Positions 23,596 through 40,237 of a stretch of 40,237 nucleotides of DNA are shown one piece after another. How positions within the stretch are numbered: position 1 is the stretch's first letter; each line of letters starts with the position of its first letter. Origin of the DNA: Lachnospiraceae bacterium (GTDB lineage: Bacteria; Bacillota; Clostridia; Lachnospirales; Lachnospiraceae); the NCBI GenBank assembly GCA_017436865.1, contig JAFSCH010000115.1, positions 1 through 40,237 on the forward strand, given 5' to 3'. The position numbers and the translations under genes were made by a program. The notes below the pieces were generated by a model that worked only from the letters and a program-made list of their open reading frames with translations, was not told the DNA's origin and made no database searches.

Positions 23596-23604
23596 TCCAC
23601 TTAT

Positions 23605-23688: not shown

Positions 23689-23703
23689 ATTCTTTACAAA
23701 ACA

Positions 23704-23817
23704 ACTCTATCAATTGGAATAAAAAGTTTTAGGTAAGTGATTCATAACAGGCGCAGTGCTAGCTGCGCCTCTTTTCTGAATCACTTTCATGAAACTTTTT
23801 GTTGTAATTGATAGAGT
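23704..23817. repeat. Long imperfect hairpin B
   Basis: A 114-bp inverted repeat with regular architecture: 12 matched base pairs (ACTCTATCAATT), a 5x5 internal loop, 9 pairs (AAAAAGTTT), a 5x5 loop, 10 pairs (AAGTGATTCA), a small loop and an 8-bp GC-rich tip (AGGCGCAG/CTGCGCCT) around TGCTAG. It contains no gene. Like hairpin A it lies just beyond the 3' end of the DUF5688-containing recombination operon. It could end the two convergent transcripts, but the size and conserved position suggest an origin-like or RNA function. Confidence 0.8.
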
Positions 23818-23831
23818 GTTGATATCTGTTT

Positions 23832-24746: not shown

Positions 24747-24764
24747 CTACCTTTCCTCCGTTCC

Positions 24765-25556: not shown

Positions 25557-25573
25557 ATAATATCTCTCCATTT

Positions 25574-26503: not shown

Positions 26504-26846
26504 CGTACCCATTTCCCCTATTACTCTTCTTATTCTTCATGCAGATTTTGCTAACCTCTGATACGATACAGTCTTGTAATTCATATTCAAAAGAATCCTG
26601 TATCTTTAACCACTGGTCATAAAAATATGATAAAACACCCGGAACTTTTATCAATTCCTGCACCGTATCCATACTCATATCCTGGCTCATTTCCAACAAC
26701 ATTTCATATATACTGATTACACACACTATTCGATATGCTTCTTCCATAACCTCAGTAGCTTTTTTCTTTGATATATCTCTTTTAAAGCTCTGTAATTCCT
26801 TGGCAATCTTTCTTGTAAAGATACGCCTTTTTCTATTCAGTTCCAT
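26481..26846 (-). CDS. Small helical DUF3848-like protein
   Basis: A protein of 121 residues, helical, unknown function (TEVMEEAYRIVCVISIYEMLLEM, then LSYFYDQWLKIQDSFEYELQDCI). It resembles the N-terminal domain of the fusion protein at 6053-7294 in pattern. The start at 26846 has GGGAGG ahead and follows DUF932; its end overlaps the start of the YqaJ gene, so the two are translationally coupled. It may be a partner of the DUF5688-like protein. Confidence 0.65.
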   Translation of the reverse strand: MELNRKRRIFTRKIAKELQSFKRDISKKKATEVMEEAYRIVCVISIYEMLLEMSQDMSMDTVQELIKVPGVLSYFYDQWLKIQDSFEYELQDCIVSEVSKICMKNKKSNRGNGYDEKACCY

Positions 26847-26860
26847 AAAATTCCTCCCTG

Positions 26861-27790
26861 CTATGCACATAACATCTGATATGCCTTGTCTATCATTACA
26901 TTTCCATCCATTGTTCTGCTAAACAGATTTTCCTTATAATTTGAAGTTTTTCTCAATGGCTCTGAATGTGTTGCAAAATCAGATACCGCATTAATGAATC
27001 TATATCCATTCTTTTCAAGGCTCTTTAAATCCGGTGCATCAAAATATCTCATCTTCATATCTTCACGTAGTTTATTCATATTTCGAACCTGTTGAGCTGA
27101 TGTTCCATCTTCAATCGGAAGTAAAATCTGAATATAATCCATAACCTGCTTATCAGAAAGCTTCTTCATTCGCAGTTCATCAAATGCTACCCCAAGCTTA
27201 TCCATATAGTCCTGTGCCTTAAACAATGTATCTTGTGCTTCCTGAAGCTTACTCCTAATATCACCTGTATGTACCATAGTCCACGAACGTTTTGCTGTAG
27301 CAAGCGCCAAATTCAATGTATTATTACATACCACTCTGATTGGTGTCGCACATACCTTAACAGCTCCTGTTCCATCATGCGTATTAGAAAATACCAAATA
27401 CGGTGAAATCCTTTCGCCTGAAATAATATACTCTTGTGGCATTCTTGCCAGTAACCATACTTTTCTTCCATCCTGTAAAGAACCAGCCGTCTCATACTTA
27501 ACACCTTCTCCAAGTAAAGCATCCGTAAACGCAAATGCTTCCTCATTCTGAATCACCTTATATCTGTCTGTAACTACTCCAAGCACCTTACGGTCAGTAT
27601 TTCTTACATTGGCTTTATATCCCACAATCTCTTCATTTTTATTTGTATAAATTGGCTCCTGTTTTACTTTCCAGTTCAATCCGGCTAATATTAATGCGTC
27701 CTTTGAACTTGGTGCTTCTGACACCCTTTTTCCTAATCCATGCCATGGTGTCTCTCTAACATAAAATATTGTTTCTACTTCTGCTGCCAT
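26861..27790 (-). CDS. DUF932 / TIGR03299 protein, element 2
   Basis: A 309-residue DUF932-family protein, the counterpart of 9105-10037: TPWHGLGKRV, LLGEGVKYETAGSLQDGRKVWLLARMPQ, TPIRVVCNNTLNLAL and GYRFINAVSDFATHS. Start after GAGGAGG, inside the last codons of a 39-codon frame upstream. First large gene of the element 2 recombination operon. Function unknown. Confidence 0.92.
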   Translation of the reverse strand: MAAEVETIFYVRETPWHGLGKRVSEAPSSKDALILAGLNWKVKQEPIYTNKNEEIVGYKANVRNTDRKVLGVVTDRYKVIQNEEAFAFTDALLGEGVKYETAGSLQDGRKVWLLARMPQEYIISGERISPYLVFSNTHDGTGAVKVCATPIRVVCNNTLNLALATAKRSWTMVHTGDIRSKLQEAQDTLFKAQDYMDKLGVAFDELRMKKLSDKQVMDYIQILLPIEDGTSAQQVRNMNKLREDMKMRYFDAPDLKSLEKNGYRFINAVSDFATHSEPLRKTSNYKENLFSRTMDGNVMIDKAYQMLCA

Positions 27791-27894
27791 TCTAAATCCT
27801 CCTCTATCTCTTCATCATTCACTTTAAATATTTTTGCAATAATGTCCTCAATCATCTTTTTTCCTATACGAATTACAAATTGAATTTCTATCAT
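27775..27894 (-). CDS. Short protein overlapping the DUF932 start
   Basis: A 39-codon frame with AAGGAGA ahead of its ATG. It encodes an acidic helical peptide (MIEIQFVIRIGKKMIEDIIA, ending EEDLEWQQK). Its end overlaps the DUF932 start by 16 bases, so it may act as a coupling leader for that gene. No family recognised. Confidence 0.5.
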   Translation of the reverse strand: MIEIQFVIRIGKKMIEDIIAKIFKVNDEEIEEDLEWQQK

Positions 27895-27907
27895 CTGCTG
27901 TCTCTCC

Positions 27908-27985
27908 TTACACTGCACGTTTCTTTCTTAATTCAAATATCACCACCACGATCAGTTTCAGTGCCGCCATAACAATGCGCTCCAT
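27908..27985 (-). CDS. Hydrophobic micropeptide
   Basis: A 25-codon frame with GGGGGTGA ahead of the ATG. The product (MERIVMAALKLIVVVIFEL, then RKKRAV) is a single membrane segment with a basic tail. It is followed at once by the 39-codon frame and DUF932. It could be a small membrane peptide or a translated leader; it is too short to classify. Confidence 0.45.
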   Translation of the reverse strand: MERIVMAALKLIVVVIFELRKKRAV

Positions 27986-28004
27986 TCTAATTCACCCCCT
28001 TAAT

Positions 28005-28029
28005 TAAAAACAAGAAGGCTATACCTTCT
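28005..28029 (-). terminator. Terminator after radC
   Basis: AGAAGG (28013-28018) pairs with CCTTCT (28024-28029), followed by TGTTTTTAATT on the minus strand, directly after the radC stop. Confidence 0.75.
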
Positions 28030-28032
28030 CAT

Positions 28033-28476
28033 TTACGCTGCCAATAATTCATTTTCCAAAAAGCTGAAATACTTGTCCCCCTCTCCTATAATAATATGGT
28101 CTTTTACTTCAATGCCTAACAGCCTACCTATCTTTAACAGCCTTTTGGTCTGAAGCTCATCTAATTTGCTAGGAACTGCTTCTCCTGATGGATGTGTATG
28201 GAACACAATAATGCCATTTGCATTCGTCAGCATTGCAGTTTTAAATATCTCCGGAATACCAAATAAACATGTATTGGATGTTCCTATTCCTACGATTTCA
28301 ATATTTGTAGGCTTCATTGCAGAATTAACACAGCACACCACAATATATTCCCTGTCTGATTCTCCGATTATTTTCTTCACTAGCTGCACCGCTTTTAGTG
28401 GTATATTCAACATCTCACCCCCATAATCAATTTCATTTTCCTTTACCACTTGTAATCTAACAATTGGTATCTTCAT
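28033..28476 (-). CDS. radC: RadC-like JAB/MPN domain protein
   Basis: A 147-residue protein consisting of the RadC JAB1/MPN (JAMM) metal-binding domain. The motif HTHPSGEAVPSKLD supplies the H-x-H and Asp ligands, and Glu lies in ANGIIVFHTH-adjacent strand region; DHIIIGEG follows. It lacks the N-terminal HhH part of chromosomal RadC, as is usual for phage and plasmid versions near recombination or antirestriction genes. A single gene with terminators on both sides. The true substrate of RadC proteins is not established. Confidence 0.88.
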   Translation of the reverse strand: MKIPIVRLQVVKENEIDYGGEMLNIPLKAVQLVKKIIGESDREYIVVCCVNSAMKPTNIEIVGIGTSNTCLFGIPEIFKTAMLTNANGIIVFHTHPSGEAVPSKLDELQTKRLLKIGRLLGIEVKDHIIIGEGDKYFSFLENELLAA

Positions 28477-28501
28477 GTTATCAGCTCCTTCCTTGCGTTT
28501 A

Positions 28502-28534
28502 TATAAAAGAATGGCAGGACTAACGCCCTGCCAT
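28502..28534 (-). terminator. Terminator of the WYL operon
   Basis: ATGGCAGG/CCTGCCAT, a perfect 8-bp stem (28511-28518 with 28527-28534), followed by TCTTTTATAT on the minus strand. It marks the end of the five-gene operon 33424-28640. Confidence 0.85.
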
Positions 28535-28639
28535 GTATCATAGATATAGTATATAATTATATAATCTTCCTTTTTCTAAATGCTCTCGTAACATATATTT
28601 TATTCTGTCATCTATTAAACAGAAACCTGCAAATCAGTT

Positions 28640-29680
28640 TTATGCCATCGCATTATTAAAACCTTTCTGCTTTAAAATATCTTCTACCTCATGTAAGGTC
28701 TTTTCTGCTTCTTGTGCATTAACTTCATTCAGTCTTTCTCCTTCTGTCTGTATAACTAATGAAACTCGACACATTTTATATAACAGACTTACTAAAAGTG
28801 CTGCATTTTCAAAGCATAACTTTTCTTCTTCGGTAAAAGTATTCCAATCTGTTTTTTCTCTAATATCCACAATTATTTCCATTTTGGCTAAATGCTTCTT
28901 ATAAATCTCATTTGCACTTGACAGTACTCTGTTATACATACTTGAGGTAATATATAATTTCTTTAAATAGGAGCATATTTCATTTATATCTTTCTCTGTT
29001 TTTTGCATTTGTTCGTATGCTTTATCAGCTTTACTGTGCATGCTTTCTCCCGAAAAATTAAAAATCAATCCTCCCACAAGTAGACCAACTCCAAGAGTAG
29101 TTACTCCTAATATAGTGGTTCCTAATGCAATCCCACCACCTCCTGCTGCTATTGCACCACCGCCTAAAGCTGCTAGCGTTGCGTTAGTCGCTGCTATACC
29201 TGTAAGACTTGCAATAGATGTTCCTGTCGACGCAACTCCTACTGCCATCACCGCAGAGGTTGTAGCTCCTGCTGCCGCAAATCCACCAGCAGTTCCCATC
29301 GCTGCACCACTCAATCCGCCTAATAAAATACTCGCTCCTAATGAAACCTTTTTGAGTTCTTCTGGATCATATTCAGGAATTTCTATCTTCTCCATATTAT
29401 AATTTTTGAATTCTGGTCTATTTTGCACTTTTTCTATATAATCTGAAAAAGTTTTAAAACTATCGAGAATTTCCAATTCTTCTTTTCCTAATTTATCCAT
29501 CTGTTTTGTAGTTTTATCATTATTTTCCTTTAACCTCTCAAGATTCCTATTATGTCGTTCTTCCGTATTCTTCATACTATCATTGGCTTGTTTCATCTTC
29601 ACCGCTCCGTGAACGGCTGCTCCTGTCCCTACTGCTCCTGCAATTCCCGCAGCAACACCTAAAACTAATGGTAATGGCAT
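28640..29680 (-). CDS. Glycine-zipper membrane protein (possible pore-forming effector)
   Basis: A 346-residue protein. The N-terminal hydrophobic Gly/Ala stretch (VLGVAAGIAGAVGTGAAV) is followed by a coiled coil (residues about 35-75). A long Gly/Ala/Ser-rich hydrophobic region (about 110-208: GGLSGAAMGTAGGFAAAG, ALGGGAIAAGGGGIALG, LGVGLLVGGLIF) and a helical C-terminal domain (KTDWNTFTEEEK) come next. That C-terminal piece is shared with the protein at 31617-32459 (NDWKTFSEEDK). Glycine-zipper segments of this size insert into membranes. It is the last gene of the WYL operon, and its ribosome site lies inside the end of the preceding gene. Effector function is inferred. Confidence 0.72.
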   Translation of the reverse strand: MPLPLVLGVAAGIAGAVGTGAAVHGAVKMKQANDSMKNTEERHNRNLERLKENNDKTTKQMDKLGKEELEILDSFKTFSDYIEKVQNRPEFKNYNMEKIEIPEYDPEELKKVSLGASILLGGLSGAAMGTAGGFAAAGATTSAVMAVGVASTGTSIASLTGIAATNATLAALGGGAIAAGGGGIALGTTILGVTTLGVGLLVGGLIFNFSGESMHSKADKAYEQMQKTEKDINEICSYLKKLYITSSMYNRVLSSANEIYKKHLAKMEIIVDIREKTDWNTFTEEEKLCFENAALLVSLLYKMCRVSLVIQTEGERLNEVNAQEAEKTLHEVEDILKQKGFNNAMA

Positions 29681-29681
29681 A

Positions 29682-29948
29682 TTATAACCCTCCTCTTTTT
29701 TGCTTTTGTATTATTAATAATTTACATTGCTCATAATTTTTAAGTTCATACTCATCTTTAGTCATAATACTTTTAAAGAAAATATCATAACATTCATCAA
29801 CTCTACATAATAAAGGTCTGCTAGTATAGACACTGCATAAGTCGTCTTTAAGGTATATACATGTTCCATCACCTCTATCCAATTCTCGATACAAATCTGA
29901 TTTATCAAGATTTCTACAACATTCTCCGCATTTATTACATTGAAACAT
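29682..29948 (-). CDS. YkgJ-type CxxCxxCC cysteine-cluster protein
   Basis: An 88-residue protein with the cysteine cluster of the YkgJ/UPF0153 family: CNKCGECCR at the N-terminus, then CIYLKDDLCSVYTSRPLLCR and a later single Cys. These bind zinc or an Fe-S cluster; the function is unknown. Its start overlaps the stop of the HNH-membrane gene by one base, and its end carries the ribosome site of the glycine-zipper gene. Such tight packing implies it works with its neighbours. Confidence 0.85.
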   Translation of the reverse strand: MFQCNKCGECCRNLDKSDLYRELDRGDGTCIYLKDDLCSVYTSRPLLCRVDECYDIFFKSIMTKDEYELKNYEQCKLLIIQKQKRGGL

Positions 29949-31612
29949 TACTCAAACACCAACCTATTGTTTTTGTCTTCCATAAAATCATCAAAATTTC
30001 CTTCCCATGGAATATTAATGCCAACCAATTCAATCACATTTTTTAGACGTTTATTGAGCTCCATTTCATCTATCCCCTGCGAAATGAATTCCTCCATCTT
30101 CATATACAGTGAAACTTCTTCTTGGAATTTATCTACATCGATTTTCATTAACTCTGCTGCATACTTCTCAATATATCGTGCCTGCTCACTGTAATAATGT
30201 GTCATAGTGCTCATTGTAGGAACCTCATTCAATTTTTTTACAACATTCTTTATTAATGAGCTTCTATCTATTAATAGCAAAAGTGTACAACTTAGTATTC
30301 CTGTTACTAATGTACCACAAAATGTCTGTACTATATCTCCTACTATCGGAATCTCTGCTACCGATGTTGTCTCAATCAATTCCATTACAATAGAACCTGT
30401 CACAACACTTGCGCCAGTCGCTATAACAACTGTAGCCGCTTTTACTCTATCACCTAACAATAAATCATCAGGATTAAACAAAATTATATCTAATGCTCTT
30501 ATTGTCGATGCGTATGTTTCTCTGATTATTTTTATAGTGTTCTTTGCTGTTGTAAAAAACACATTACAAAGAGTTGTTGTAATACTTGATAAAGCCCCTG
30601 CTATAAAACCTTCTCCCAATACAGCTATTGCTTCTTTGTATTTCTGTCTCGCTTTTTCTACTCCTTTCTTTACACCTTGAACAATCGCTAGATATATCTT
30701 CTCTAAGTTGAATTCTTCATCTTCTTTCTGTGCTAATTCTTCTTTAACAGCAAACCACACTTCCATAAACACAAATCCAAATAACTGCCTAACTCCCATC
30801 TTGACTCCGAGTTTTCCCGCTGCCTTAGCCGTATCTTTTACAAAACTAGGACTTGTATAATAAGCTCTTGCAAGCTTCGATTCATAGGCTTTTCTTGCCT
30901 TTTCATCCTTTTCATGCATTAGCTCTGGATTTATCTCATTCAATTTTTCTAATTTATTTAGTTCTTTTCGCTCTTTATCGGTAAGTGTTTGTTGCTCTTT
31001 TAGCTCTTGTATTCTACGATTCCTTTCCTCCTCATTCTTTTCTATTCTAGCCAGAAAATCATCTATAGAGTACTTATTCATTGATTTATTAATACTTTCA
31101 TTTGTAGGTTGCAAATTCACATCTGCATTAGCCAAATCTACACCATTAAGGCCTGCCAGTATTCTTCCGGAATCATCATGAATTTCTTTAGCCGAAATAA
31201 CATGATCTAAATTACTCTTTTCGTTGCGTGTCATCATTTTTCCAGTATAAGCATCTTCCAACATACCAGCTTTTCGTGCTTCACTCACCTTAGCATTTTT
31301 AGCAATATATCGTTCATCTGAATGATATTCTCTTGAAATGTCCTTGTCATATAAGCGATGCTCCTGAAATGCTTTGGCGTTCTGCGCATTTTTATATGTA
31401 AGCTCACTTCCTTCTTTCACAGCCTCTCTTACATTATGAATTGTATCTACATCTCCACCTAAACGATCAGATATAATAAAATCCAATCCAAACGAAGTAA
31501 TGATACTTTCAACAATTACCTTTTCATACTGCTGAAAAATACTTTTAAAAATATTTTCTTCTGGCTCAATTGTAAAATTGTCTGCCACCTTATTTGCAAA
31601 TTCGATTCCCAT
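29948..31612 (-). CDS. HNH nuclease-like protein with C-terminal membrane domain
   Basis: A 554-residue protein from the start at 31612 (MGIEFANKVAD), which has AAAGGAG eight bases ahead; the upstream reading overlaps the previous gene. Residues 117-176 look like an HNH module: DAYTGKMM, the Asp-His in NLDHVIS (136-137), then VNLQPTNESINKSM with the conserved Asn residues. A charged coiled coil follows (about 185-265). The second half has several hydrophobic segments (GFIAGALSSITTTLCNVFF, VVIATGASVVTGSIVMEL, FCGTLVTGILSCTLLLLI). A membrane-tethered nuclease is an unusual combination and fits a conflict-system effector. Activity is inferred. Confidence 0.75.
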   Translation of the reverse strand: MGIEFANKVADNFTIEPEENIFKSIFQQYEKVIVESIITSFGLDFIISDRLGGDVDTIHNVREAVKEGSELTYKNAQNAKAFQEHRLYDKDISREYHSDERYIAKNAKVSEARKAGMLEDAYTGKMMTRNEKSNLDHVISAKEIHDDSGRILAGLNGVDLANADVNLQPTNESINKSMNKYSIDDFLARIEKNEEERNRRIQELKEQQTLTDKERKELNKLEKLNEINPELMHEKDEKARKAYESKLARAYYTSPSFVKDTAKAAGKLGVKMGVRQLFGFVFMEVWFAVKEELAQKEDEEFNLEKIYLAIVQGVKKGVEKARQKYKEAIAVLGEGFIAGALSSITTTLCNVFFTTAKNTIKIIRETYASTIRALDIILFNPDDLLLGDRVKAATVVIATGASVVTGSIVMELIETTSVAEIPIVGDIVQTFCGTLVTGILSCTLLLLIDRSSLIKNVVKKLNEVPTMSTMTHYYSEQARYIEKYAAELMKIDVDKFQEEVSLYMKMEEFISQGIDEMELNKRLKNVIELVGINIPWEGNFDDFMEDKNNRLVFE

Positions 31613-31616
31613 AGGC

Positions 31617-32459
31617 TTACTCCTTTGTAGCAAAGAAATAAGGAACTTCGTTTTCAATAAAATCCATAGCCATTTCGGATAAATTTCCATTTCTATCAAC
31701 TAACGGTAATTCTATTATTTCTTGTACTCTTAATACTGCTTTCAACATATTAACAACAGCTCTTTTATCTTCTTCTGAAAATGTTTTCCAATCGTTTGTA
31801 TTTTTCAAAATCATTTTCAATTCGGTGTTTGCACAACCTACTAGTCTTTTTTGTTTCTCCAGTACTAGCAATAATTTTTCGACAGCCTTATAAATCCACT
31901 TAAGTTCCTTAATCTGTTCTTTCGATAATGTTTCCATTTCTTTTGCATTCTCTAATCTTTTATTCGCATAATTTATCAAGTTCCAATCCAGTAACAAAGC
32001 TGGTCCTCCTACATGCGGATATATTGTTTTTTCTCCATTATTCCTTTTATACCTATCAAATTCTGCATGAATTGCCCATAGATATAAAACATTTTCACTG
32101 TCTTCTGAATCCTCCCTTGCTCTTTTTACCATCGCATCTATCTTCAATATCAATTCTCTAGTAGTGTCTTGACATCCTTGTTTTTTTATACTGCTACTTT
32201 CAATATCTATATTGTCAATCAATGAATAATATTTTAGGAATTCCTCAATTTCTATTGTGCAAGTACTTAATTTCATTCTTCCAAACTGCTTTAATAAAGC
32301 TATATTTTTTTCCTCTTGTTCACTATATTCTTTTAAAATTCTTTCTTCTATTTCTTTTGTCTGTTTATCCAAACTATTTGCTCTCAGCCTATTTGCTACT
32401 GCTCCACCAATTCCTGCAATTACTAATCCTTTTGGTGAATAACCTCTTACTACTTTCAC
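31617..32459 (-). CDS. Helical coiled-coil protein related to the glycine-zipper protein
   Basis: A 280-residue protein with a short hydrophobic N-terminus (GLVIAGIGGAVANRL), a coiled coil (KQTKEIEERILKEYSEQEEKN) and a helical C-terminal domain (ILKNTNDWKTFSEEDKRAVV) shared with 28640-29680 (IREKTDWNTFTEEEKLCFE). It has no large zipper region, so it might be the inactive or controlling partner of that protein. It starts at GTG overlapping the WYL stop (GTGA) and ends four bases before the next start. Function unknown. Confidence 0.7.
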   Translation of the reverse strand: MKVVRGYSPKGLVIAGIGGAVANRLRANSLDKQTKEIEERILKEYSEQEEKNIALLKQFGRMKLSTCTIEIEEFLKYYSLIDNIDIESSSIKKQGCQDTTRELILKIDAMVKRAREDSEDSENVLYLWAIHAEFDRYKRNNGEKTIYPHVGGPALLLDWNLINYANKRLENAKEMETLSKEQIKELKWIYKAVEKLLLVLEKQKRLVGCANTELKMILKNTNDWKTFSEEDKRAVVNMLKAVLRVQEIIELPLVDRNGNLSEMAMDFIENEVPYFFATKE

Positions 32460-33424
32460 ACCAAATCACCCTTTCTTGATATCAATAGTACATTTTCTCC
32501 TTGACTCCTCAACCACATATCAACACCTTCACCGCCAAACACTTCCGCTGTTACCGTATATGTACCATTATCATTTAGCTCACAATTTGCTGTAGGAAAT
32601 CTATCCTGTATTGCTTCTAAGGATGTACCCTTATATATAAACTTTAGCTTTACCAAATCTCCTCCATACATAAATTGCACTCTCTGTCTAAACTGGCTTT
32701 CTTCAAATCTGCTACCATATGGCATTTGAAAATGTTCCGATTCTATACTGTATCTATTAATCCTGTCTATTCGATATATTGTTGGGTGTAGCTCGTCCAC
32801 TTCGAACTTTGCTGCCGGTTCACTATCATGATGAAATGCAATCAGATAAAAATAAAATTCCGCAAACATGATTCCAACCGGTTTAATCCGTCTTTTGACG
32901 TTTTTTCCATCTAATCTCGAATAGTCTATTTTCATTAATCGCTGTTTCCGGATAGCTGTTCCAATATCCCATATAGCAGTAAGAAGCGGTTTTTCGTGTT
33001 TTAATGGAATATAATAATGTTTTTCATTAAGAATCAGCTCCTGTACCTCTTGTCTTCTCTCAGTTGCAATATCGGATTTAACGATTTTATCAAGTATCTG
33101 ATACATTTCTTCTCTTGTAAAAGCTCTGCTTTCCAATAATATCTTACACACTGCCAAAGCCTCTTCATCTGTTAGTTCATTCTCCTTCTCACAAGCACAA
33201 ATATAACCATTAAGACTTCGATTATATATAATATCTTTTCGCTTTCCCCTTACTGTCTCTCTCTCAGAAAAATATGTTCGGATCACCTCAATATCTCTCT
33301 GAATCGTCCTTTCGTTCACTCCATATTGATTTGCAGCTACTTTCTTATTTATCACCTGCCCCTCTGTCAGGCGAGTCATTATATCTAATATCCTCATTTG
33401 CTTTCCATACTCTTCTGTATCCAC
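32456..33424 (-). CDS. WYL-domain transcription regulator
   Basis: A 322-residue regulator. The N-terminal winged HTH (RILDIMTRLTEGQVINKKVAA, then GVNERTIQRDIEVIRTYF) is followed by a WYL domain (about 150-225: LTAIWDIGTAIRKQRLMKIDY, RRIKPVGIMFAEFYFYLIAF) and a WCX domain (VKLKFIYKG to VFGGEGVDMWLRSQG). WYL proteins bind small ligands or nucleic acid ends and often control defence loci. It starts at GTG with AGAGGTGG ahead and is the first gene of a five-gene operon. A palindrome centred at the -35 position of its promoter recurs upstream of the gene at 38580-39416, so it probably controls both. Confidence 0.9.
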   Translation of the reverse strand: MDTEEYGKQMRILDIMTRLTEGQVINKKVAANQYGVNERTIQRDIEVIRTYFSERETVRGKRKDIIYNRSLNGYICACEKENELTDEEALAVCKILLESRAFTREEMYQILDKIVKSDIATERRQEVQELILNEKHYYIPLKHEKPLLTAIWDIGTAIRKQRLMKIDYSRLDGKNVKRRIKPVGIMFAEFYFYLIAFHHDSEPAAKFEVDELHPTIYRIDRINRYSIESEHFQMPYGSRFEESQFRQRVQFMYGGDLVKLKFIYKGTSLEAIQDRFPTANCELNDNGTYTVTAEVFGGEGVDMWLRSQGENVLLISRKGDLV

Positions 33425-33453
33425 TGAACCACCTCTTTTCTTGTTATACTTTT

Positions 33454-33486
33454 ATTATACTCATTACCGTAGACATACCTTTGTCC
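33454..33486 (-). promoter_or_regulatory. WYL operon promoter with palindromic operator
   Basis: On the minus strand GGACAAAGGTATGTC (33486-33472) is followed after 12 bp by TATAAT (33459-33454). There is no normal -35 box; the palindrome occupies that place, as expected for activator-dependent promoters. The same arrangement occurs at 39506-39474. Confidence 0.75.
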
Positions 33487-33653
33487 ATCTTGTTATTATT
33501 TTCAGTTTTTTCTTTCCTTTATATTAAATATTCTAACACTTGATATTTGCAATTGTAAATACAGCTATTGCAAATTAATACATTGCATACGCAAATTTGA
33601 TTATTGTTTATATATTTCATTTTCTCACATAAACTAATTTGAGAGGTGATAAC

Positions 33654-33884
33654 ATGCCAACGAAACGTGAACAAGAATATAAAATGATTGGATTAAATAT
33701 CGCATATTATAGAAAATTAGCTGGTCTCAGCCAGTTACAATTAGCAGAAAAAGTAGGAATCAGCCGTACTCACATGAGCAATATCGAAGCACCTAATATG
33801 CCTACATCTATTTCTCTTGAAACACTTATGGATATTGCAGATGCCTTGAATACACCAGCCAGCACATTATTAATCTTCAAATAA
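33654..33884 (+). CDS. Small XRE-family HTH regulator
   Basis: A 76-residue HTH_3 protein (MIGLNIAYYRKLAGLSQLQLA, EKVGISRTHMSNIEAPN, then LETLMDIADALNTPASTLL). The start at 33654 has GAGAGGTG ahead. It is transcribed away from the WYL gene and ends in a terminator shared with the convergent vWA gene. It may take part in control of the WYL operon from the 230-bp divergent region, but no palindrome for it was identified. Confidence 0.88.
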   Translation: MPTKREQEYKMIGLNIAYYRKLAGLSQLQLAEKVGISRTHMSNIEAPNMPTSISLETLMDIADALNTPASTLLIFK

Positions 33885-33893
33885 TAAAAAATA

Positions 33894-33931
33894 AACCATG
33901 CTCGTATCATTTGAGCAATGGTTCATTTTTT
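33894..33931. terminator. Bidirectional terminator between XRE and vWA genes
   Basis: AACCATGCTC pairs with GAGCA(A)TGGTT (one bulged A), with a T-rich run on the right side for the plus strand and an A-rich run on the left side for the minus strand. It ends both converging transcripts. Confidence 0.85.
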
Positions 33932-35747
33932 ATTGGAAGTAAAATATTTTCCCTCTTGTCTTAAATGGCAGCCTATGACCTTTCGGAATCAAATATGCAT
34001 GTTCTCTATGTACTTTCAGATTACTCTCGATAAAACCATCCGTAATAATAAGTATCGGTCCATCTTTTGGAAAATCCTTTGCATTTTCAAGACAGTTAAC
34101 ACCATATTGTAAAATAGTTCCCCCTCTTCCTACGACTTCCACACGGTCAGCAATTCTCTCCGGCTCCATATATCCGGCATCGTATGCTTTTGCATCACAA
34201 AATACCACTCTTACAAAAGGAACCTCCTTAGCATTCGCATAGCTTGCAATACTTCCTAACGCTTTTCCTATTAACTGTTTATCCATAGAACCGGATGTAT
34301 CAACAATAACACCAAATGTCCTTGCATTTTTCTCTTCCTCGTACCATACCATTCGTGGTCTTGGAATATCAGGCGTTGTTCCCTGTCTCCTACTTGGTCT
34401 TGCATATGTTCTATGTTTTTCTAAAGCCGGAAAATGTATTTCAAACCACTGTGCCAGTTCTACATCCCATGGAATTGCAGGCATACACAAAGCCTTTATT
34501 TCTTCGATAAGACCTGCCGGTAAATAGCCTCTGCCATTCTGCTGATGATATTCCAAGCCCTGAGATAAAGCTTCCCTAAAATATCTGTCGAGGTCTATAT
34601 CATCTAATGGATTCTTTCCTGCTCTGACTCTTCCAAACTCTCCCTTTCCATAGCCCCTGAATGTGCCAAGCTTCATATATTGCCTTATATCACCAAGTAT
34701 TTCATCATAAATCATTTCTGCTGACATATTGGCAAATTTTACATCATACAAAGCACATTCTGGCATTTTTCCTATTTTCAGTTCCACGAGCCAGCCATTA
34801 ATGACATAATCACAGGCAACATTCCAAAGATATGCATTTTTCCCTGCACTTCTTGTATGATGTTGCAGTCCGGCATGGAGATACTCATGTGCCAGCACAA
34901 ACTTCAATTCCTCTTCATCAAGTCCTGCCGCAGTATTAATATAGATTTCCCCTGCTTCTATATCAACTGCTGCTATCTGTATTTCCTCTTCTGTACATAT
35001 CCTATAATCTTCTATAATCTGAAATCCTGTAGCAATTCCGCCTAATAAGGGATAGTGATTCATGAACCATTCTGCGGCTCTTTTGACCTTTTCACTACAT
35101 TTTTCTACTGTTTTATTCGTACCTGCTGCACTATCTATGGTTTCTGTTACAGAATATGCCAATGCATAGCTAAAGCCTTCCACATAACGATTCTTTCGCC
35201 CATTCTGATATACAAGCGGCTTATCTAAACCAACCATTTGTATTCTTTTTCGAATCTCTTTAAAAAACTCCGTTTCTGCTTCCTTCCATTGTTTTTCAAG
35301 TAATTCATTATATATTTCTGTTTCATCAGCCAGTTTTATTTTTAAGTCCATATCTTGAAATGGATTCTGCCCGCATTTCATATCCTTTAGAAACTTCATA
35401 CAATATAAGTCACAAGCCAGATTCCATCTCTGTATATCTACTCTTTGTTGTAGCAATGTATTTTTCTCAGGCATTCTTTCCTCATCAAAATGCCCAAATC
35501 CCAGATGCAAGTGCTGTAATGCCAATATATACAGCCACTCTTTGGGATGTAACAGATATTCTTCATTTACCCAAATTGTTCCATCTGACTTAACAACACT
35601 GATACAGTCTTTTCCAATCTCTTTCTTTTTACAGTTTCTGATATACCCACTCAATTTTCCAAATAATCTGTGTGATTGAAATAATCGAATTCCCTGTTCC
35701 AAATTTTCCCTTTCCAGAGGTATTTTTTCTTTTCCCTTTTTTCCCAT
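33930..35747 (-). CDS. Metallopeptidase-like/vWA protein (DUF2201-type)
   Basis: About 605 residues; the start at 35747 has GGAG at eight bases. The central zinc-peptidase motif HEYLH (about 287-291) is followed by LQHH and the WNVACDYVING signature. The C-terminal vWA domain has a MIDAS motif (VIVDTSGSM, about 483-488) and ILIITDG. An earlier segment (about 70-128: LHPKEWLYILALQHLHLGF to RWNLACDLYCMKFL) repeats the peptidase region, but the His-Glu pair is replaced by Leu-Gln. It overlaps the MoxR gene closely; MoxR ATPase-vWA pairs act as chaperone-like remodelling machines. The substrate is unknown. Confidence 0.88.
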   Translation of the reverse strand: MGKKGKEKIPLERENLEQGIRLFQSHRLFGKLSGYIRNCKKKEIGKDCISVVKSDGTIWVNEEYLLHPKEWLYILALQHLHLGFGHFDEERMPEKNTLLQQRVDIQRWNLACDLYCMKFLKDMKCGQNPFQDMDLKIKLADETEIYNELLEKQWKEAETEFFKEIRKRIQMVGLDKPLVYQNGRKNRYVEGFSYALAYSVTETIDSAAGTNKTVEKCSEKVKRAAEWFMNHYPLLGGIATGFQIIEDYRICTEEEIQIAAVDIEAGEIYINTAAGLDEEELKFVLAHEYLHAGLQHHTRSAGKNAYLWNVACDYVINGWLVELKIGKMPECALYDVKFANMSAEMIYDEILGDIRQYMKLGTFRGYGKGEFGRVRAGKNPLDDIDLDRYFREALSQGLEYHQQNGRGYLPAGLIEEIKALCMPAIPWDVELAQWFEIHFPALEKHRTYARPSRRQGTTPDIPRPRMVWYEEEKNARTFGVIVDTSGSMDKQLIGKALGSIASYANAKEVPFVRVVFCDAKAYDAGYMEPERIADRVEVVGRGGTILQYGVNCLENAKDFPKDGPILIITDGFIESNLKVHREHAYLIPKGHRLPFKTRGKIFYFQ

Positions 35748-35752
35748 CTGCA

Positions 35753-36808
35753 TTACTCCGTTCCACTAATCAGCCTTGGGATATCCCTTACGATTTCTAC
35801 CAGAAACCAATCCGGTAATTTCTTGTTTTCTTCTACAGATACTACCATCTGCGCTATCTCAAGATTTATCTGTGCAAGCTCTTTTATCAATGCCTTTGCT
35901 CTATGTGCAAGATATTGACTATCCTTCGTCATATTCTGTTTTTTCTCCGGTAAGTCATGCCAAAGCTTAGCTCTGAATGACTGTGCTATAAAATACAGTG
36001 AATCTCTATCCTCCGGTGCTGATGGGAACTTTTCTGTTCCTTTAATAATCTCATTCAGCAAAAATTTATTGCCACACTGCTTTGTAAATGCTACAAACAT
36101 TCCTGCATGCGCTGCTGACAAGCATCCATATGACAGTATTCTGATTTCATTTTCTGTAATGTGTTCTCCATATTCCTTCAGTGCATCACTAAGCATATGC
36201 CATGAACGCGGTGTAGAGTAGATTTCTTCTGTCTTAGGTGGCTCTGAGTATAAATGATCTGGTCTTTGTGTAATGTATTCCAATACCCAAGGATGTAGTC
36301 CGTTTTCATACCCCCACGAAAGCCAGCTATTCACATCAGGCTTCAACTGAACATGAAACATTCTGTTTATGAGTGCTGATGACATTGTTTTTACAATCGC
36401 ACTATCCTGCGAACGGTTACCTGCTCCGATTACAACACTTCCTTCCGGCAAATAATATTCACCTACTCTTCTTTCATGAATCAGCGAATAAAATGCCTTT
36501 TGTACTTCCTGCGAACAGGCATTTAACTCATCTAAGAACAGACAATATGGCTCTTTTCTTGCAATCATCTTGGGCGGTAAAAATGTGCTTACTTCTCCTG
36601 TAATCTGTGGAATTCCGATAATGTCTTCCGGTGCTAACTGGCTTCCCAATAAAGATACACATGGTAATCCTACACTTTCTGCAAACTTCTCAACTAATGC
36701 TGACTTTCCAATCCCTGGTGCTCCCCATATAAACACAGGTCTAACAGGTGCAATATTTAATAATACTTCCAATAACTCTTCCTGATTTACGGTTAATGGT
36801 AAATTCAT
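35753..36808 (-). CDS. MoxR-type AAA+ ATPase
   Basis: A 351-residue AAA_5/MoxR ATPase with Walker A GAPGIGKS (29-36), Walker B CLFLDE (89-94), sensor GAGNRS and arginine-finger region SSALINRMFHVQL. MoxR ATPases work with a vWA protein to remodel or activate target proteins; the vWA gene starts immediately after it. The C-terminal third is helical. It belongs to a run RtcB - zinc protein - MoxR - vWA and may be co-expressed with rtcB, since no terminator is visible between them. Confidence 0.92.
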   Translation of the reverse strand: MNLPLTVNQEELLEVLLNIAPVRPVFIWGAPGIGKSALVEKFAESVGLPCVSLLGSQLAPEDIIGIPQITGEVSTFLPPKMIARKEPYCLFLDELNACSQEVQKAFYSLIHERRVGEYYLPEGSVVIGAGNRSQDSAIVKTMSSALINRMFHVQLKPDVNSWLSWGYENGLHPWVLEYITQRPDHLYSEPPKTEEIYSTPRSWHMLSDALKEYGEHITENEIRILSYGCLSAAHAGMFVAFTKQCGNKFLLNEIIKGTEKFPSAPEDRDSLYFIAQSFRAKLWHDLPEKKQNMTKDSQYLAHRAKALIKELAQINLEIAQMVVSVEENKKLPDWFLVEIVRDIPRLISGTE

Positions 36809-36856
36809 AAATTCTTTCTCCTCTTTTGTTCTTTACTACTGTTTTTCTTAACAGTT

Positions 36857-37042
36857 TTATGCAATATATTTACTACGTTGTTTCTCATTGTATTGTTTTT
36901 TCTTATTTATTTTCTTTACTTTTGCACGCGGAATATACTTTCCACAGTGCTGACAATATTTCTTATGGTTTGCCTCTCTTCCTTTTTCGCACTCTCCATA
37001 GGCAAGATAATATTTGCATGGTACTTCTCTATAACTACTCAT
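36857..37042 (-). CDS. Small Cys/His zinc-binding protein
   Basis: A 61-residue basic protein with a probable zinc site: Cys in VPCKYYLAYGEC, His in REANHKK and the pair CQHCGKY. A strongly basic tail follows (RAKVKKINKKKQYNEKQRSK). The spacing resembles CCCH-type zinc fingers that bind RNA, which would fit its place directly after rtcB. ATG start with AAAGGGATG ahead. Confidence 0.75.
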   Translation of the reverse strand: MSSYREVPCKYYLAYGECEKGREANHKKYCQHCGKYIPRAKVKKINKKKQYNEKQRSKYIA

Positions 37043-37062
37043 CTTTGAATCATCCCTTTCTG

Positions 37063-38208
37063 CTAATTTCCAGCTTTGAAATTGTAAATTGGTCTTATGA
37101 TTTTGGTAATATTTACTGTTTCTTTGATTACTTCTTTCACATCATCCAAGTTCCGATAAGCAAATGGAGCTTCATCCAATGTCTCTTTACCAATACAGGT
37201 TGTATAGATTCCTTTCATTGCCGTTTTAAATGAGGATACCGTATATTGTGTTTTTACATCTTCACGCTTCATAATCCTTCCTGCTCCATGCGGTGAAGAA
37301 CAATTCCACGCTTCATTGCCAAGACCTTCCCCTAATATAATCCCGTCCCGCATATTAATCGGAATAATAACTTTCTCTGCTTTCTTTGCAGAAATCGCTC
37401 CTTTTCTGAGCATAGGTGCGCAGAATACATGCAGCGTTTCCTCTGATGTATCAATATAATTGTGAATACACGAATAACTATCTAACACCTTCCACTTCAT
37501 TCCCTTTACAAGCTCATCCAATATAATTTCTCTGTTCAGAGTTGCAAACTGTTGAACCACCTGTAAATCATGCAGATAGCTTTGTAACAATCCATTTTCC
37601 AGATACGTCAGTTCATATGGAATTTTCATTCCCTTAGCTAAGAGTTCTTTTTGCCCTTCCTTCAGATAGTATTCTGTTACTTCTTTTCCTAAATGACGAC
37701 TTCCTGAATGAATCACTATGTAAAGATTACCTTCCTCATCTCTATCTGCCTCAATAAAGTGATTACCCCCACCTAATGTTCCAAGGCTGAGTAATGCTTT
37801 CTCTTCCTGAATATGTCTGTAACAATGTAATCTTGATAAATCAAATTCCTTTGCAAATCGGTGTATCTTATTTCGTATTGCAAAACCGGATGGTATGTTT
37901 TCACGAATGACGGCATCTAATTTCTGATATTCAATTTTCTTTCCTTTTATCTGTGCCAGTGTCATCCCACAGCCGATATCAATACCTACCAGATCAGGCA
38001 TTAATCTTTCACCTACCGTCATAGTAAGTCCGATTGTTCCTACTTTTCCGGGATGTACATCCGGCATAACACATATCCGGCTTCCTTTAGCTGTTTCATG
38101 ATTGCATAACATCTGTAACTGTTGCACTGCATAATCATCTATTGCATGTTCTTTGTTCTGTGTTGTGAAAATATTCGCTGATGTATAGACTCCATTAATT
38201 GTTATCAT
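37063..38208 (-). CDS. rtcB: RtcB RNA ligase
   Basis: A 381-residue RtcB, which joins 2',3'-cyclic phosphate and 5'-OH RNA ends with GTP and Mn2+. All key residues are visible: Cys80 in GIDIGCGM, His150 in GGGNHFIE, His167 in VIHSGSRH, His249 in SCIHNY, and the guanylylated His307 in SSPHGAG. Length is slightly below the E. coli protein (408). It is read from a separate promoter with an elaborate leader (38238-38545) and is followed by the zinc protein, MoxR and vWA genes. RtcB repairs RNA cut by toxins, so the context suggests damage response. Confidence 0.95.
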   Translation of the reverse strand: MITINGVYTSANIFTTQNKEHAIDDYAVQQLQMLCNHETAKGSRICVMPDVHPGKVGTIGLTMTVGERLMPDLVGIDIGCGMTLAQIKGKKIEYQKLDAVIRENIPSGFAIRNKIHRFAKEFDLSRLHCYRHIQEEKALLSLGTLGGGNHFIEADRDEEGNLYIVIHSGSRHLGKEVTEYYLKEGQKELLAKGMKIPYELTYLENGLLQSYLHDLQVVQQFATLNREIILDELVKGMKWKVLDSYSCIHNYIDTSEETLHVFCAPMLRKGAISAKKAEKVIIPINMRDGIILGEGLGNEAWNCSSPHGAGRIMKREDVKTQYTVSSFKTAMKGIYTTCIGKETLDEAPFAYRNLDDVKEVIKETVNITKIIRPIYNFKAGN

Positions 38209-38237
38209 AAAAATCCTTTCTCATAGCACTTTTCCGT

Positions 38238-38297
38238 ATGCCAATGAAACCGCTTCCTGATATGCTATGCATAATACAAAAAGCAATTTCTTGGCAT
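38238..38297 (-). ncRNA. Long stem-loop in the rtcB leader
   Basis: On the minus strand ATGCCAA pairs with TTGGCAT (7 bp), continued after one bulged A by GAAATTGCTT with AAGCGGTTTC (10 bp with two G-U pairs). An apical TATGC-ATA-GCATA hairpin caps it. It spans 60 nt between the leader terminator and the rtcB ribosome site. A 17-bp helix there is not expected by chance. It may control rtcB translation or be cut and sensed by the RNA-repair system. Confidence 0.65.
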
Positions 38298-38298
38298 C

Positions 38299-38324
38299 AA
38301 AAAAGCACCTCAATCAAGAGATGC
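38299..38324 (-). terminator. Leader terminator upstream of rtcB
   Basis: GCATCTC/GAGGTGC (7 bp, one G-U) with a six-base loop, followed by U6 on the minus strand. It follows the 27-codon leader ORF and precedes the rtcB stem-loop, so rtcB expression from the leader promoter would need read-through or antitermination. Confidence 0.75.
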
Positions 38325-38363
38325 AGATATCCTATATATACAATTATGGATAAGATATAAAGA

Positions 38364-38447
38364 CTACCCTAAAACAGATATACGGACAACCACAACTCTC
38401 TGGTTTACTGTTAAATTGTTGTTTTTTAAGTTCATATTACGTGTCAT
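38364..38447 (-). CDS. Leader peptide upstream of rtcB
   Basis: A 27-codon frame with an excellent AAAGGAGG ribosome site six bases before the ATG. The product (starts MTRNMNLKNNNLTV, ends RVVVVRISVLG) has an Asn-rich first half and a Val-rich second half. It lies between a strong promoter and a terminator, which is the layout of an attenuation leader or of an independently made micropeptide. It is not similar to anything I recognise. Confidence 0.6.
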   Translation of the reverse strand: MTRNMNLKNNNLTVNQRVVVVRISVLG

Positions 38448-38488
38448 GATTATCCTCCTTTCGAATCAGGGTTAATTAGTGTCTGAAT

Positions 38489-38545
38489 GTTATAAGTTGT
38501 AAAACTTATGACACGTAGTATATCGACAATAATTTCAAATGTCAA
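38489..38545 (-). promoter_or_regulatory. Consensus promoter and operator-like repeats of the rtcB leader
   Basis: On the minus strand TTGACA (38545-38540), a 17-bp spacer and TATACT (38522-38517). Immediately downstream lies an inverted repeat, ATAAGTT-TTAC-AACTTAT (38509-38492), placed to block a polymerase at the start site. A perfect 10-bp repeat, TACGTGTCAT (38438-38447), pairs with ATGACACGTA (38508-38517). Near-consensus strength plus an operator at +1 suggests repression that is lifted on demand. Confidence 0.75.
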
Positions 38546-38579
38546 TAGTGTTTTGGTATATTATATTGGCAAAAACTTT

Positions 38580-39416
38580 CTATCCATCACATCTTTCTAC
38601 CCAATCAAATACCGAATATCCAGATGTAAGTTGAATTTCATGATACGATAAATCAATTAAATGCTCATTTTCCGTAATTCCGTCCGGCTTAAAGAAGTGA
38701 TACCAACAACCATTACTGTCTTTTTCACTTTGCAATATCCCATATATCGGCTCTTGCATGATTGGTGTCTGAATCTTTAGTCTGCAACCGTTTTCAAATG
38801 GCAACTCCAAATGACAAAGCTCATAATAATAATTCAAACTGGCAAGTGTCTCCGGAAATACTCCTCTTTCTATTAACCATGGTTCATTGGGATAAACTCT
38901 GACTATCTGTAACTTCTTCTCCAGCCATAGCATTTCAAATTCCATCAGTATCTGATGAGGCTGATTCTGCGGTAAAATAATCTGATATACATATACTTTT
39001 TCCTGAAAATCGTTACTATGGTTATATAGTTTTCCTGTTTCATCAAGCAATTTTTCCATAGAATCATAAAACTCTATATCCGCTGTAGGAAAACGAAATA
39101 CATCTAGTGAACTTACTTTCATTTCCGTTGTTGCATTCGAAATACATTCTCTTACATACAGAACCCTATCAGTCGGATTATATATCTGCGCAATACATAA
39201 ATTGAATAAAGTAATCATTTGCCTCACTTTATATTCATCCTTTACACAGATTAATTCTGATAATGCTTGAAGCATTTCTCTTTTCTTCTCTATTGAGGCA
39301 TAACTATGTAGAATTAACTGTATCTTTTCATTTACCGTAAATCGCATATTCTGACGGAAAAATTCTCTTATTTCTATATTTCTAATACATTGATAAATAT
39401 CAAAACTCTCATGCAT
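38580..39416 (-). CDS. Unknown protein upstream of the RtcB cluster
   Basis: A 278-residue soluble protein of no recognised family. The N-terminal half is helical (FTVNEKIQLILHSYASIEKK to MITLFNLCIAQIY). The C-terminal half is beta-rich with many aromatic residues (FEMLWLEKKLQIVRVYPNEPWL, CRLKIQTPIMQEPIYGIL). Start with GGAAGGTGG ahead. Its promoter carries the same palindrome and spacing as the WYL promoter. No terminator separates it from the rtcB leader promoter, so its transcript could continue into rtcB. A role in RNA repair or sensing is inferred from position only. Confidence 0.65.
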   Translation of the reverse strand: MHESFDIYQCIRNIEIREFFRQNMRFTVNEKIQLILHSYASIEKKREMLQALSELICVKDEYKVRQMITLFNLCIAQIYNPTDRVLYVRECISNATTEMKVSSLDVFRFPTADIEFYDSMEKLLDETGKLYNHSNDFQEKVYVYQIILPQNQPHQILMEFEMLWLEKKLQIVRVYPNEPWLIERGVFPETLASLNYYYELCHLELPFENGCRLKIQTPIMQEPIYGILQSEKDSNGCWYHFFKPDGITENEHLIDLSYHEIQLTSGYSVFDWVERCDG

Positions 39417-39473
39417 TCTTTACCACCTTCCTCTTCATTCCTTATTATTTGCTTTTGATATGCCTTTGACATT

Positions 39474-39506
39474 ATTCTACAGATTTTCATAGACATACAT
39501 ATGTCC
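39474..39506 (-). promoter_or_regulatory. Second copy of the WYL-type operator/promoter
   Basis: On the minus strand GGACATATGTATGTC (39506-39492), then 12 bp, then the -10 box TAGAAT (39479-39474). The core GACATA-CA-TATGTC is a perfect palindrome. Base by base it matches the WYL promoter at 33486-33454, including the identical 12-bp spacing and the absence of a -35 box. Confidence 0.75.
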
Positions 39507-39559
39507 TTACATTTTTCAATATATATTAATTAAAGAATAACTGACTATATATACCTAAA

Positions 39560-40146
39560 AATGCCCAATCAGCACCACCGGCTTAGCCGGTGGTTTGCTC
39601 ACGCCCTATAAGGGCTCATTACCTGCGTTTGAGTCTAAAGACTCATCGAAAAGTTCGCCAGCCGCAAAACATTTACCTACTTGAGTCCCTTGGACTCATA
39701 TTACTTGTTCTTCTTTACTGGCTCACCCGTAAACGGGTCTACATACTCTTTCAACGTCATCTGATCATACTCAAAATCTTCTTTCAACTGATTTTGAATA
39801 TATTCCTGTATTTTCTTTGCATTCTTGCCTACAGTATCAACGTAATATCCCCTACACCAAAAATGTCTATTTCCAAACTTATATTTCAAATTTGCATGTC
39901 TTTCAAATATCATTAAGGTACTCTTTCCTTTCAGATATCCCACAAAACTTGAAACACTTATGCTTGGTGGAATTTCAACCAACATATGAACATGATCTGA
40001 ACACATCTCTGCTTCTACAATCTTGACTCCTTTTCTCTTACATAAAGCACTCAATATATTAGCTATGTCCTGTTTCAGTTGTCCATATATTATTTTTCTT
40101 CTGAACTTTGGTGCAAAAACAATGTGATACTTACAATTCCACTTGG
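39560..40146 (-). mobile_element. IS200/IS605-type insertion sequence, 5' part interrupted
   Basis: Contains a HUH transposase gene and, beyond its 3' end, the set of hairpins usual for such elements: GAGTCC/GGACTC, GAGTC/GACTC, GCCCT/AGGGC and the perfect CCACCGGC-TTA-GCCGGTGG (39575-39593), which should be the end hairpin recognised by TnpA. No tnpB gene is present in the window. The other end is outside the window, beyond a group II intron. Confidence 0.8.
39701..40146 (-). CDS. tnpA: IS200-type transposase TnpA, 3' exon
   Basis: A Y1 HUH single-strand transposase. Visible: KWNCKYHIVFAPKFRRK near the usual N-terminus, HVHML with the two metal-binding His residues, and the catalytic Tyr region YYVDTVGKNAKKIQEYIQNQ. 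The family normally begins a few residues before KWNCKYH. Here the reading frame upstream (to 40213) is not transposase but the end of a group II intron, so the first exon must lie outside the window. The protein can be made only if the intron splices. Confidence 0.88.
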
Positions 40147-40237
40147 GTCGAGTAGATAAGGGGAATCTCACCCCAAACCTCTCACGGAACCGTACGTGAT
40201 AGTCTCCCATCATACGGCTCTTGTCGTCTTTACATCG
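40147..40237 (-). mobile_element. Group II intron, 3' end (domains V and VI)
   Basis: On the minus strand a 34-nt domain V (40220-40187) starts GAGCCGTATG, has the AGC triad, a GAGA tetraloop and the closing CGTACGGTTC. Domain VI follows (GAGGTTTGGGG paired to the CCCC side), with a bulged A seven bases before the 3' end in CTACTCGAC. The exon starts at about 40146, inside tnpA. The rest of the intron, including any reverse transcriptase gene, lies beyond the window. Confidence 0.88.

Follow-up and report, generated by a model that had tools for sequence, protein, structure and literature searches.

What does it mean that the same palindrome stands at the same distance from the -10 box of two promoters lying 6 kb apart? 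The question is raised by a 40,237-nt stretch of DNA from a Lachnospiraceae bacterium (hereafter the window; contig JAFSCH010000115.1 of source genome G000, 4,204,847 bp, whose assembly has a contamination rating of 7.68%), in which one copy precedes the gene of a WYL-domain regulator and the other precedes a gene for a protein of 278 amino acids (aa) beside a cluster encoding an RtcB-family RNA ligase. WYL regulators are very common in bacteria and, to our knowledge, few of them have known sites. As far as the sequences indicate, the arrangement most likely represents an autoregulated WYL regulon, probably an autoactivating one, which joins candidate defence genes with, in relatives, RNA repair. 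More specifically, we consider it fairly probable that the palindrome is the WYL operator and that a WYL homodimer would activate both its own operon and the promoter of the 278-aa gene.

Both promoters have the layout GGACAnAnGTATGTC-12 bp-TAnAAT, which is absent elsewhere in the 4.2-Mb genome. The spacer between box and -10 reads TACGGTAATGAG at site 1, where the WYL gene starts with GTG at 33424, and TATGAAAATCTG at site 2, where the 278-aa gene starts with ATG at 39416; seven of these 12 bases are identical, whereas boxes of different loci share 31% on average. The exact 15-mer has only two genomic copies, both of them window sites. A single match with one mismatch (contig C52) was rejected as a target, as it lies within a 118-aa open frame and has no -10 at 12 bp. 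The relaxed pattern GACA-N5/6-TGTC-N12-TAnnnT gave nine hits in the genome and its reversed control seven, and among the nine hits only the window sites had a -10 with no more than one mismatch from TATAAT. A consensus promoter scan listed no sigma-70-type promoter that uses either -10 box. Box 2 was also considered as a part of the neighbouring IS200-type element and rejected, because the genomic IS200 copies match the window at 39566-40141 only, that is, no further than 39566. An earlier note on this DNA, made from the letters alone, had described the two palindromes and their spacing; on re-reading, its coordinates and letters were exact, the further agreement TA-G--AAT--GTA-AAT that it pointed out was correct, and its proviso that the motif should not be frequent elsewhere in the genome agrees with the two exact copies. 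Its TATAAT at 12 bp applies to site 1, whereas the -10 of site 2 reads TAGAAT.

The assignment of the box to the WYL protein was examined in related genomes. The regulator scored 38.4 bits against the WYL-domain profile PF13280 (cut-off 21.8) and E 3.5e-17 against the PADLOC WYL profile, and fold comparisons placed a winged helix-turn-helix (wHTH) domain at about residues 5-79, a WYL/Sm-like domain at about 148-230 and a C-terminal domain at about 254-322. Of 397 family genomes, 55 contained homologues at E <= 1e-20 (own genome counted), and many of the upstream regions of 29 WYL homologues contained GACA-N5/6-TGTC, 12 bp and a TATAAT-like box. For the box count, 40 stretches around WYL homologues (labelled L with a number) and the window were searched for strict boxes with 12-bp spacing in the 250 bp preceding the start and in the initial 45 bp of the frame, with WYL genes of at least 250 aa and other genes of at least 100 aa. 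Such a box was detected before 23 of the 42 WYL genes and 10 of the 490 other genes of the same loci (Fisher p 2e-21), with the motif having been derived from largely the same genes as were later counted, and reversed half-sites preceded none of the 42. Five stretches (L105-L109; L105 and L106 are near-copies within one genome) had been picked partly for pattern hits, and 19 of 37 WYL genes carried the box when these were left out. The 12-bp spacing occurred in 23 cases and every other spacing from 4 to 25 bp in three at most. Outside the count are several near misses (L087, with 13 bp; L086 and L104, with one half-site mismatch; L100, with a -10 off by two) and a box about 500 bp upstream of the WYL gene in L108. 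Thus, the scan of related genomes suggested in the earlier note does find the box at its 12-bp distance before WYL genes, and GACA-N5/6-TGTC, exactly 12 bp, TATAAT and no -35 is a promoter class in these genomes. Because the box precedes WYL genes so much more often than other genes, it is very probably the operator of this WYL family itself.

By a hand tally uncorrected for genome size, the TATANT form of the pattern occurred in 34 of 55 genomes with a close WYL homologue and in 85 of 342 without one. At least two boxes were present in one WYL-gene locus in nine cases (L079, L083, L092, L097, L102, L106, L118, L163, and L184). The likeness of boxes was not clearly higher within than between loci (p 0.07 for both core and spacer); gap size was equal in 17 of 17 within-locus pairs versus 1046 of 1414 between-locus pairs. 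This comparison dropped L105 (near-copy of L106), L173 (same region as L097) and one of each pair of boxes less than 60 bp apart. At L088 9269-9281 and L102 8443-8455, a single palindrome is flanked in either direction by a -10 at 12 bp, apparently forming divergent promoters. A strict box also precedes a Rad52/22-like gene (L103, 18648, plus strand) beside homologues of the DUF932 and YqaJ-like genes of the window, and a pattern hit in genome G196 (L062) adjoins an FtsZ-like frame. Searches of viral_contigs with the WYL and 278-aa proteins yielded no relative, and phmmer found nothing for the WYL protein among PDB sequences at E 0.1.

Two forms of the box can be distinguished, one of 13 bp (N5) and one of 14 bp (N6), and both window boxes have the rarer 14-bp form, as expected if one protein reads both. 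In a tree of 27 WYL proteins the N6 form appeared in two places, in L105-L109 (support 89/85; the stretches picked partly for pattern hits) and separately in the window protein. The source genome encodes four further WYL-domain proteins, of which one on contig C103 belongs to a different subfamily and has a box of its own, GACATACAGTTGTC, at about 2124-2137 of its stretch (L110). GACA-N5/6-TGTC was found in 15 of 28 upstream regions of the C103 orthologues (L225 and L240 left out); these boxes have GACATAC-like half-sites, mostly with AAACAT...GTGTTT arms, and a -10 about 13 bp from TGTC as judged by eye. Hence, the promoter class may extend to a second WYL subfamily.

If the -10 is set at its usual -12 to -7, the proximal TGTC falls at -28 to -25. 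A WYL homodimer would then sit over the missing -35, contacting this downstream TGTC and the upstream GACA at about -38 to -35. Its WYL domain might bind a nucleic-acid signal, perhaps single-stranded DNA arising from DNA damage or phage infection, and the signal-bound protein could keep sigma-A RNA polymerase at promoters with nothing but a -10. In this way it would activate the candidate defence genes of its own operon as well as the 278-aa gene beside the RtcB cluster at a distance of 6 kb. A constant distance from the -10 in the -35/-26 region, a trait of activators of the DriD/PafBC/SiwR type, is seen in the letters of both window sites and of the 23 boxed WYL genes. With its palindrome over the -35, its fixed spacing and a proximal TGTC at the position known from PafBC promoters, this geometry speaks for activation. 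Comparison of folds leaves the matter undecided: Foldseek ranked DriD at 1-6 and 8, PafBC at 7 and 9-11 and BrxR from 12 (by E-value DriD, PafBC, then BrxR and CapW), with low TM-scores for a model of modest confidence, and VIA-align did not separate DriD, PafBC, BrxR and CapW. On the strength of the constant spacing, of the geometry in published systems and of the fact that no -35 is present, activation appears clearly more probable than repression, the odds having been lowered slightly because VIA-align and the -35 control described below add no weight.

The connection with RNA repair was examined in an independent sample, the best 80 of 319 vWA-gene loci, mostly from Lachnospiraceae by title and collected independently of the box, of which 64 with at least 500 bp upstream were used and 16 dropped. 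A strict box in the same direction, at most 900 bp upstream of the cluster, was found in 5 of 16 clusters that contain RtcB. It was rarer among other genes (9 of 673; p 6e-6) and among MoxR-vWA clusters without RtcB (2 of 48, L117 and L171; p 0.009), and reversed boxes were absent from both cluster groups. In the five boxed RtcB clusters (L118, L140, L162, L163, and L184) the box lies 217-358 bp from the RtcB start. WYL genes were present in 6 of 24 RtcB loci and none of 56 loci without RtcB (p 4e-4; median locus length 17.0 versus 14.1 kb). In L115 a boxed WYL gene, a leader and RtcB-MoxR-vWA all lie on one strand, and in L173/L097 (Eubacterium ramulus) the box near RtcB faces away from it. 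The canonical promoter of these clusters, termed P2, was marginally weaker where a box was present (7 versus 22 loci, p 0.043), its canonical form occurring in 1 of 7 boxed and 13 of 22 unboxed clusters (p 0.08). The link to the RNA-ligase cluster appears to be indirect in the window and supported in relatives.

Several observations weigh against a WYL activator that serves both groups of genes. In the WYL genomes, which alone were covered by the control, the TATANT pattern gave 57 hits and its reversed form 32. That the protein activates rather than represses is something we infer, and the absence of a -35, which the earlier note had offered as a mark of activator-dependent promoters with the palindrome in its place, lends no weight: among the 59 strict boxes pooled from WYL and vWA loci (41 + 18), matches to TTGACA at the -35 place never exceeded 3/6 and averaged 1.9, compared with 2.6 after shuffling, but shuffles that kept the box letters averaged 2.0, equal to the observation. 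The box letters alone thus force a -35 to be missing, and this argument for activation was withdrawn. The genome also encodes a second WYL protein with a related box of its own. In the window, the direct control predicted for box 2 reaches only the orphan 278-aa gene. Finally, of 12 genomes searched, 6 contained a WYL homologue at E <= 1e-20; none was found in those of L140, L162, L117 and L171, so that two of the five genomes with a box before RtcB showed no close homologue. The two broader proposals of the earlier note consequently stand in part. Activation of both groups by the WYL protein is in keeping with the recurrence of the box, the shared rarer form and an activator-like layout, while activation as such is a probable reading and the C103 protein is a competitor; the tie to RNA ligase finds backing in the boxed clusters and WYL neighbours of relatives, rather than in the window itself.

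The same sites could alternatively be used by a WYL autorepressor of the CapW or BrxR kind, which would block the polymerase from the palindrome and be released when its WYL domain binds a ligand. CapW and BrxR are WYL repressors of defence loci with palindromic operators (PMC9122588, PMC9122601), and BrxR has a second box, R-BOX2, upstream of PbrxA (PMC9122601). The window regulator shares its operon with candidate defence genes as they do, polymerase could be occluded by a box that covers the -35 region, and the extended -10 found in 15 of the 59 boxes could fire without a -35. However, the CapW operator overlaps the -10 (PMC9122588) and BrxR R-BOX1 lies downstream of the promoter (PMC9122601), whereas at both window sites 12 bp separate the end of the palindrome from the -10 downstream of it. 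Moreover, a repressed promoter must be able to fire unaided, which is difficult to reconcile with 59 boxes none of which has more than three of six matches at the -35 place, and it is not obvious why a repressor would need a constant 12-bp spacing. Autorepression is considered possible but unlikely.

It is also conceivable, although improbable, that one or both window boxes are bound by another of the five WYL proteins of the genome, such as that of contig C103 with its GACA-N5/6-TGTC box. Most C103-type boxes differ in their outer arms, which are absent from the window boxes, and in the distance of their -10, and it is beside homologues of the window WYL gene itself that the window-type box recurs. 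Slightly less probable still is a chance match at site 2, leaving site 1 as the only functional one: the gene behind site 2 is an orphan, its -10 deviates, and relaxed patterns do arise randomly, as the seven reversed-control hits indicate. Yet all 13 specified positions agree, the only two copies in 4.2 Mb lie before start codons of one 6-kb region with the same spacing and much of the spacer in common, and multiple boxes per WYL locus recur, in nine loci. Activation by the window WYL protein at both sites is thus preferred here, and the surrounding genes are listed in Table 1.

Table 1. Promoter elements and genes around the two WYL boxes (window positions)
Feature	Position	Strand	Remarks
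WYL regulator, 322 aa	32456..33424	-	PF13280 E 1.3e-9; PADLOC WYL; AlphaFold2 (AF2) model, predicted local distance difference test (pLDDT) 65
WYL box 1, GGACAAAGGTATGTC (GACA-N6-TGTC)	33472..33486	-	centre at about -31.5 if 33454..33459 serves as -10
-10 box TATAAT	33454..33459	-	12 bp downstream of box 1; without -35
WYL box 2, GGACATATGTATGTC	39492..39506	-	read from sequence
-10 box TAGAAT	39474..39479	-	12 bp downstream of box 2; without -35
278-aa orphan protein	38580..39416	-	directly downstream of box 2; single-sequence AF2 pLDDT 40
Canonical promoter P2 of RtcB cluster, TTGACA-17-TATACT	38517..38545	-	consensus scan; same kind in relatives
27-aa leader open reading frame (ORF), MTRNMNLKNNNLTVNQRVVVVRISVLG	38364..38447	-	behind strong Shine-Dalgarno sequence
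Intrinsic-terminator-like site	38305..38324	-	between leader ORF and RtcB; consensus scan
RtcB-family RNA ligase	37063..38208	-	PF01139 E 3.5e-57
MoxR-like AAA ATPase	35753..36808	-	profile search
vWA / DUF2201 putative metallopeptidase	33930..35753	-	profile search
280-aa protein, second gene of WYL operon	31617..32459	-	no convincing family; one Pfam match below cut-off
583-aa protein, PADLOC PDC-M40B	29948..31699	-	E 2e-31; no Pfam match
88-aa CxxCxxCC protein	29682..29948	-	library scan; homologues in WYL stretches
346-aa glycine-rich hydrophobic protein, PADLOC PDC-M09A	28640..29680	-	E 1.7e-32; weak LeoBC match, 1.3e-6

A search of the 396 other family genomes at E 1e-10 found no match to the 278-aa protein. 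Pfam, PADLOC, NCBIfam and PHROGs assigned it to no family at the cut-offs applied, and its single-sequence fold was too poor for a structure search. Because RtcB has its own promoter, leader ORF and terminator-like site, box 2 could influence the RtcB gene of the window by read-through only; such read-through is possible though unproven, since the consensus scan listed no terminator between the 278-aa gene and P2. The promoter, leader and terminator-like site at 38545-38305 give the appearance of an RNA-repair operon attenuated through a leader peptide. Leader ORFs of comparable composition were recognized by pattern in 30 of the 80 vWA loci, several with RGLVVL or RGLVIL-like ends, and the promoter was scored in 29. 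A literature search for RtcB together with leader peptides or attenuation found nothing on such regulation among the matches listed.

In the WYL operon, the profile matches assign two proteins to the PDC-M40B and PDC-M09A families, with a defence role as candidates. The 583-aa protein shows an HNH-like motif, read by eye only, and has homologues in five WYL stretches (L073, L085, L089, L093, and L108); in L073, L085, L093 and L108 it occurs together with the 88-aa and 346-aa proteins, and single members of this trio are present in L089 and L079. Eleven of 42 operon partners, taken from box-led WYL operons, were scanned, ten of them against Pfam and ten against PADLOC. The dynamin family was matched by five of ten in Pfam; the PADLOC matches were LeoA or LeoBC for five of ten (some weak), BnzB for two and PDC-M09B for one, with none for the remaining two. 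Ten proteins behind boxes that do not precede WYL genes had no PADLOC match, and their Pfam matches comprised leucine-rich repeats (two), zinc ribbons, a Rad52-like domain (L103) and a sub-threshold SH3 domain, with nothing for five. Candidate defence therefore appears to be a theme of the WYL operons and is not extended to all box targets. Searches of the literature for the WYL domain with dynamin and defence, and for WYL with LeoA, returned nothing. Downstream of the WYL operon (24765-28476, minus strand) lie RecT, DUF932 (both phage families), RadC and a YqaJ-like gene recognized by eye, a set that resembles the recombination modules of phages or integrative elements. At the contig edge, the IS200-type element (39566-40225, minus strand; tnpA open frame 39701-40213; repeats matching 39566-40141) immediately follows the 3' end of a group II intron (Rfam RF00029, 40147-40222), which was the only Rfam match at gathering thresholds in 23000-40237.

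With these genes in view, a more far-reaching proposal may tentatively be made, although we regard it as rather unlikely in its entirety: a family-wide emergency programme of Lachnospiraceae, in which an autoactivating WYL sensor with -35-less promoters and homodimeric sigma adaptation would couple membrane-acting defence proteins (dynamin-like/Leo, glycine-zipper, and PDC) to an RtcB cluster with a leader-peptide attenuator as an additional gate. Full expression of RNA repair would then require both a nucleic-acid alarm and a simultaneous disturbance of translation. The invariant 12-bp spacing from box to -10 may provide a rule for predicting WYL targets by sequence in gut Lachnospiraceae, and in some relatives the box would place candidate defence operons and RNA repair under the same sensor. 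The box promoters also allow a test of whether a WYL homodimer can stand in for the -35 in the manner of PafBC. The literature on WYL domains in Lachnospiraceae contained nothing on such a regulon, judged by title, among the matches listed.

Among known systems, the box promoter is rated as a variant of WYL activator promoters, and its layout resembles those of DriD, PafBC and SiwR more than those of CapW or BrxR R-BOX1. DriD of Caulobacter crescentus is a homodimeric wHTH-WYL activator whose sites overlap the -35 at a single fixed distance from the -10, and whose target promoters match the -35 very poorly, at 1-2 of 6 positions (PMC12340889, a preprint). The window WYL protein, a homologue of this type, shares the palindrome over the -35 and the fixed -10 distance, but is only 17-19% identical to DriD over the Foldseek alignment. 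Moreover, the DriD site is a 20-bp pseudo-palindrome and the named targets of DriD are DNA-damage genes. The site near driD is reported not to mediate any action of DriD on driD itself, in contrast to the window, where a box precedes the regulator's own gene. The mycobacterial PafBC (RecA-NDp) promoters, with the consensus tTGTCRgtg-8nt-TannnT (PMC5656591), likewise have TGTC exactly 12 bp before TAnnnT. PafBC, a WYL activator, replaces the -35 contact by sigma adaptation and does not bind DNA without RNA polymerase (PMC11804915); it is a heterodimer on a non-palindromic motif (PMC6789036), in contrast to the single WYL gene and the palindromic GACA-N6-TGTC of the window operon.

SiwR of Mycobacterium smegmatis is again a homodimeric WYL activator with an imperfect palindrome that spans the -35 to -10 regions and a required -26 region (PMC10693628), and it differs in its 19-bp palindrome, in a conserved GGA at -26 and in controlling dinB-like genes beside siwR. 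CapW and BrxR resemble the window system in that a WYL regulator is encoded with phage-defence genes (here candidate ones) and has palindromic sites, two of them in one island in the case of BrxR, and differ from it in operator position and in being repressors. With regard to the RNA-ligase cluster, RtcR-controlled rtcBA operons also combine an RNA-ligase operon with a regulator that has a predicted ligand-binding domain (PMC4012209, PMC7790460); however, RtcR is a CARF-type sigma-54 activator, whereas here the -10 is of the sigma-A type and is combined with a WYL box and a leader ORF, and the window cluster contains MoxR-vWA in place of RtcA.

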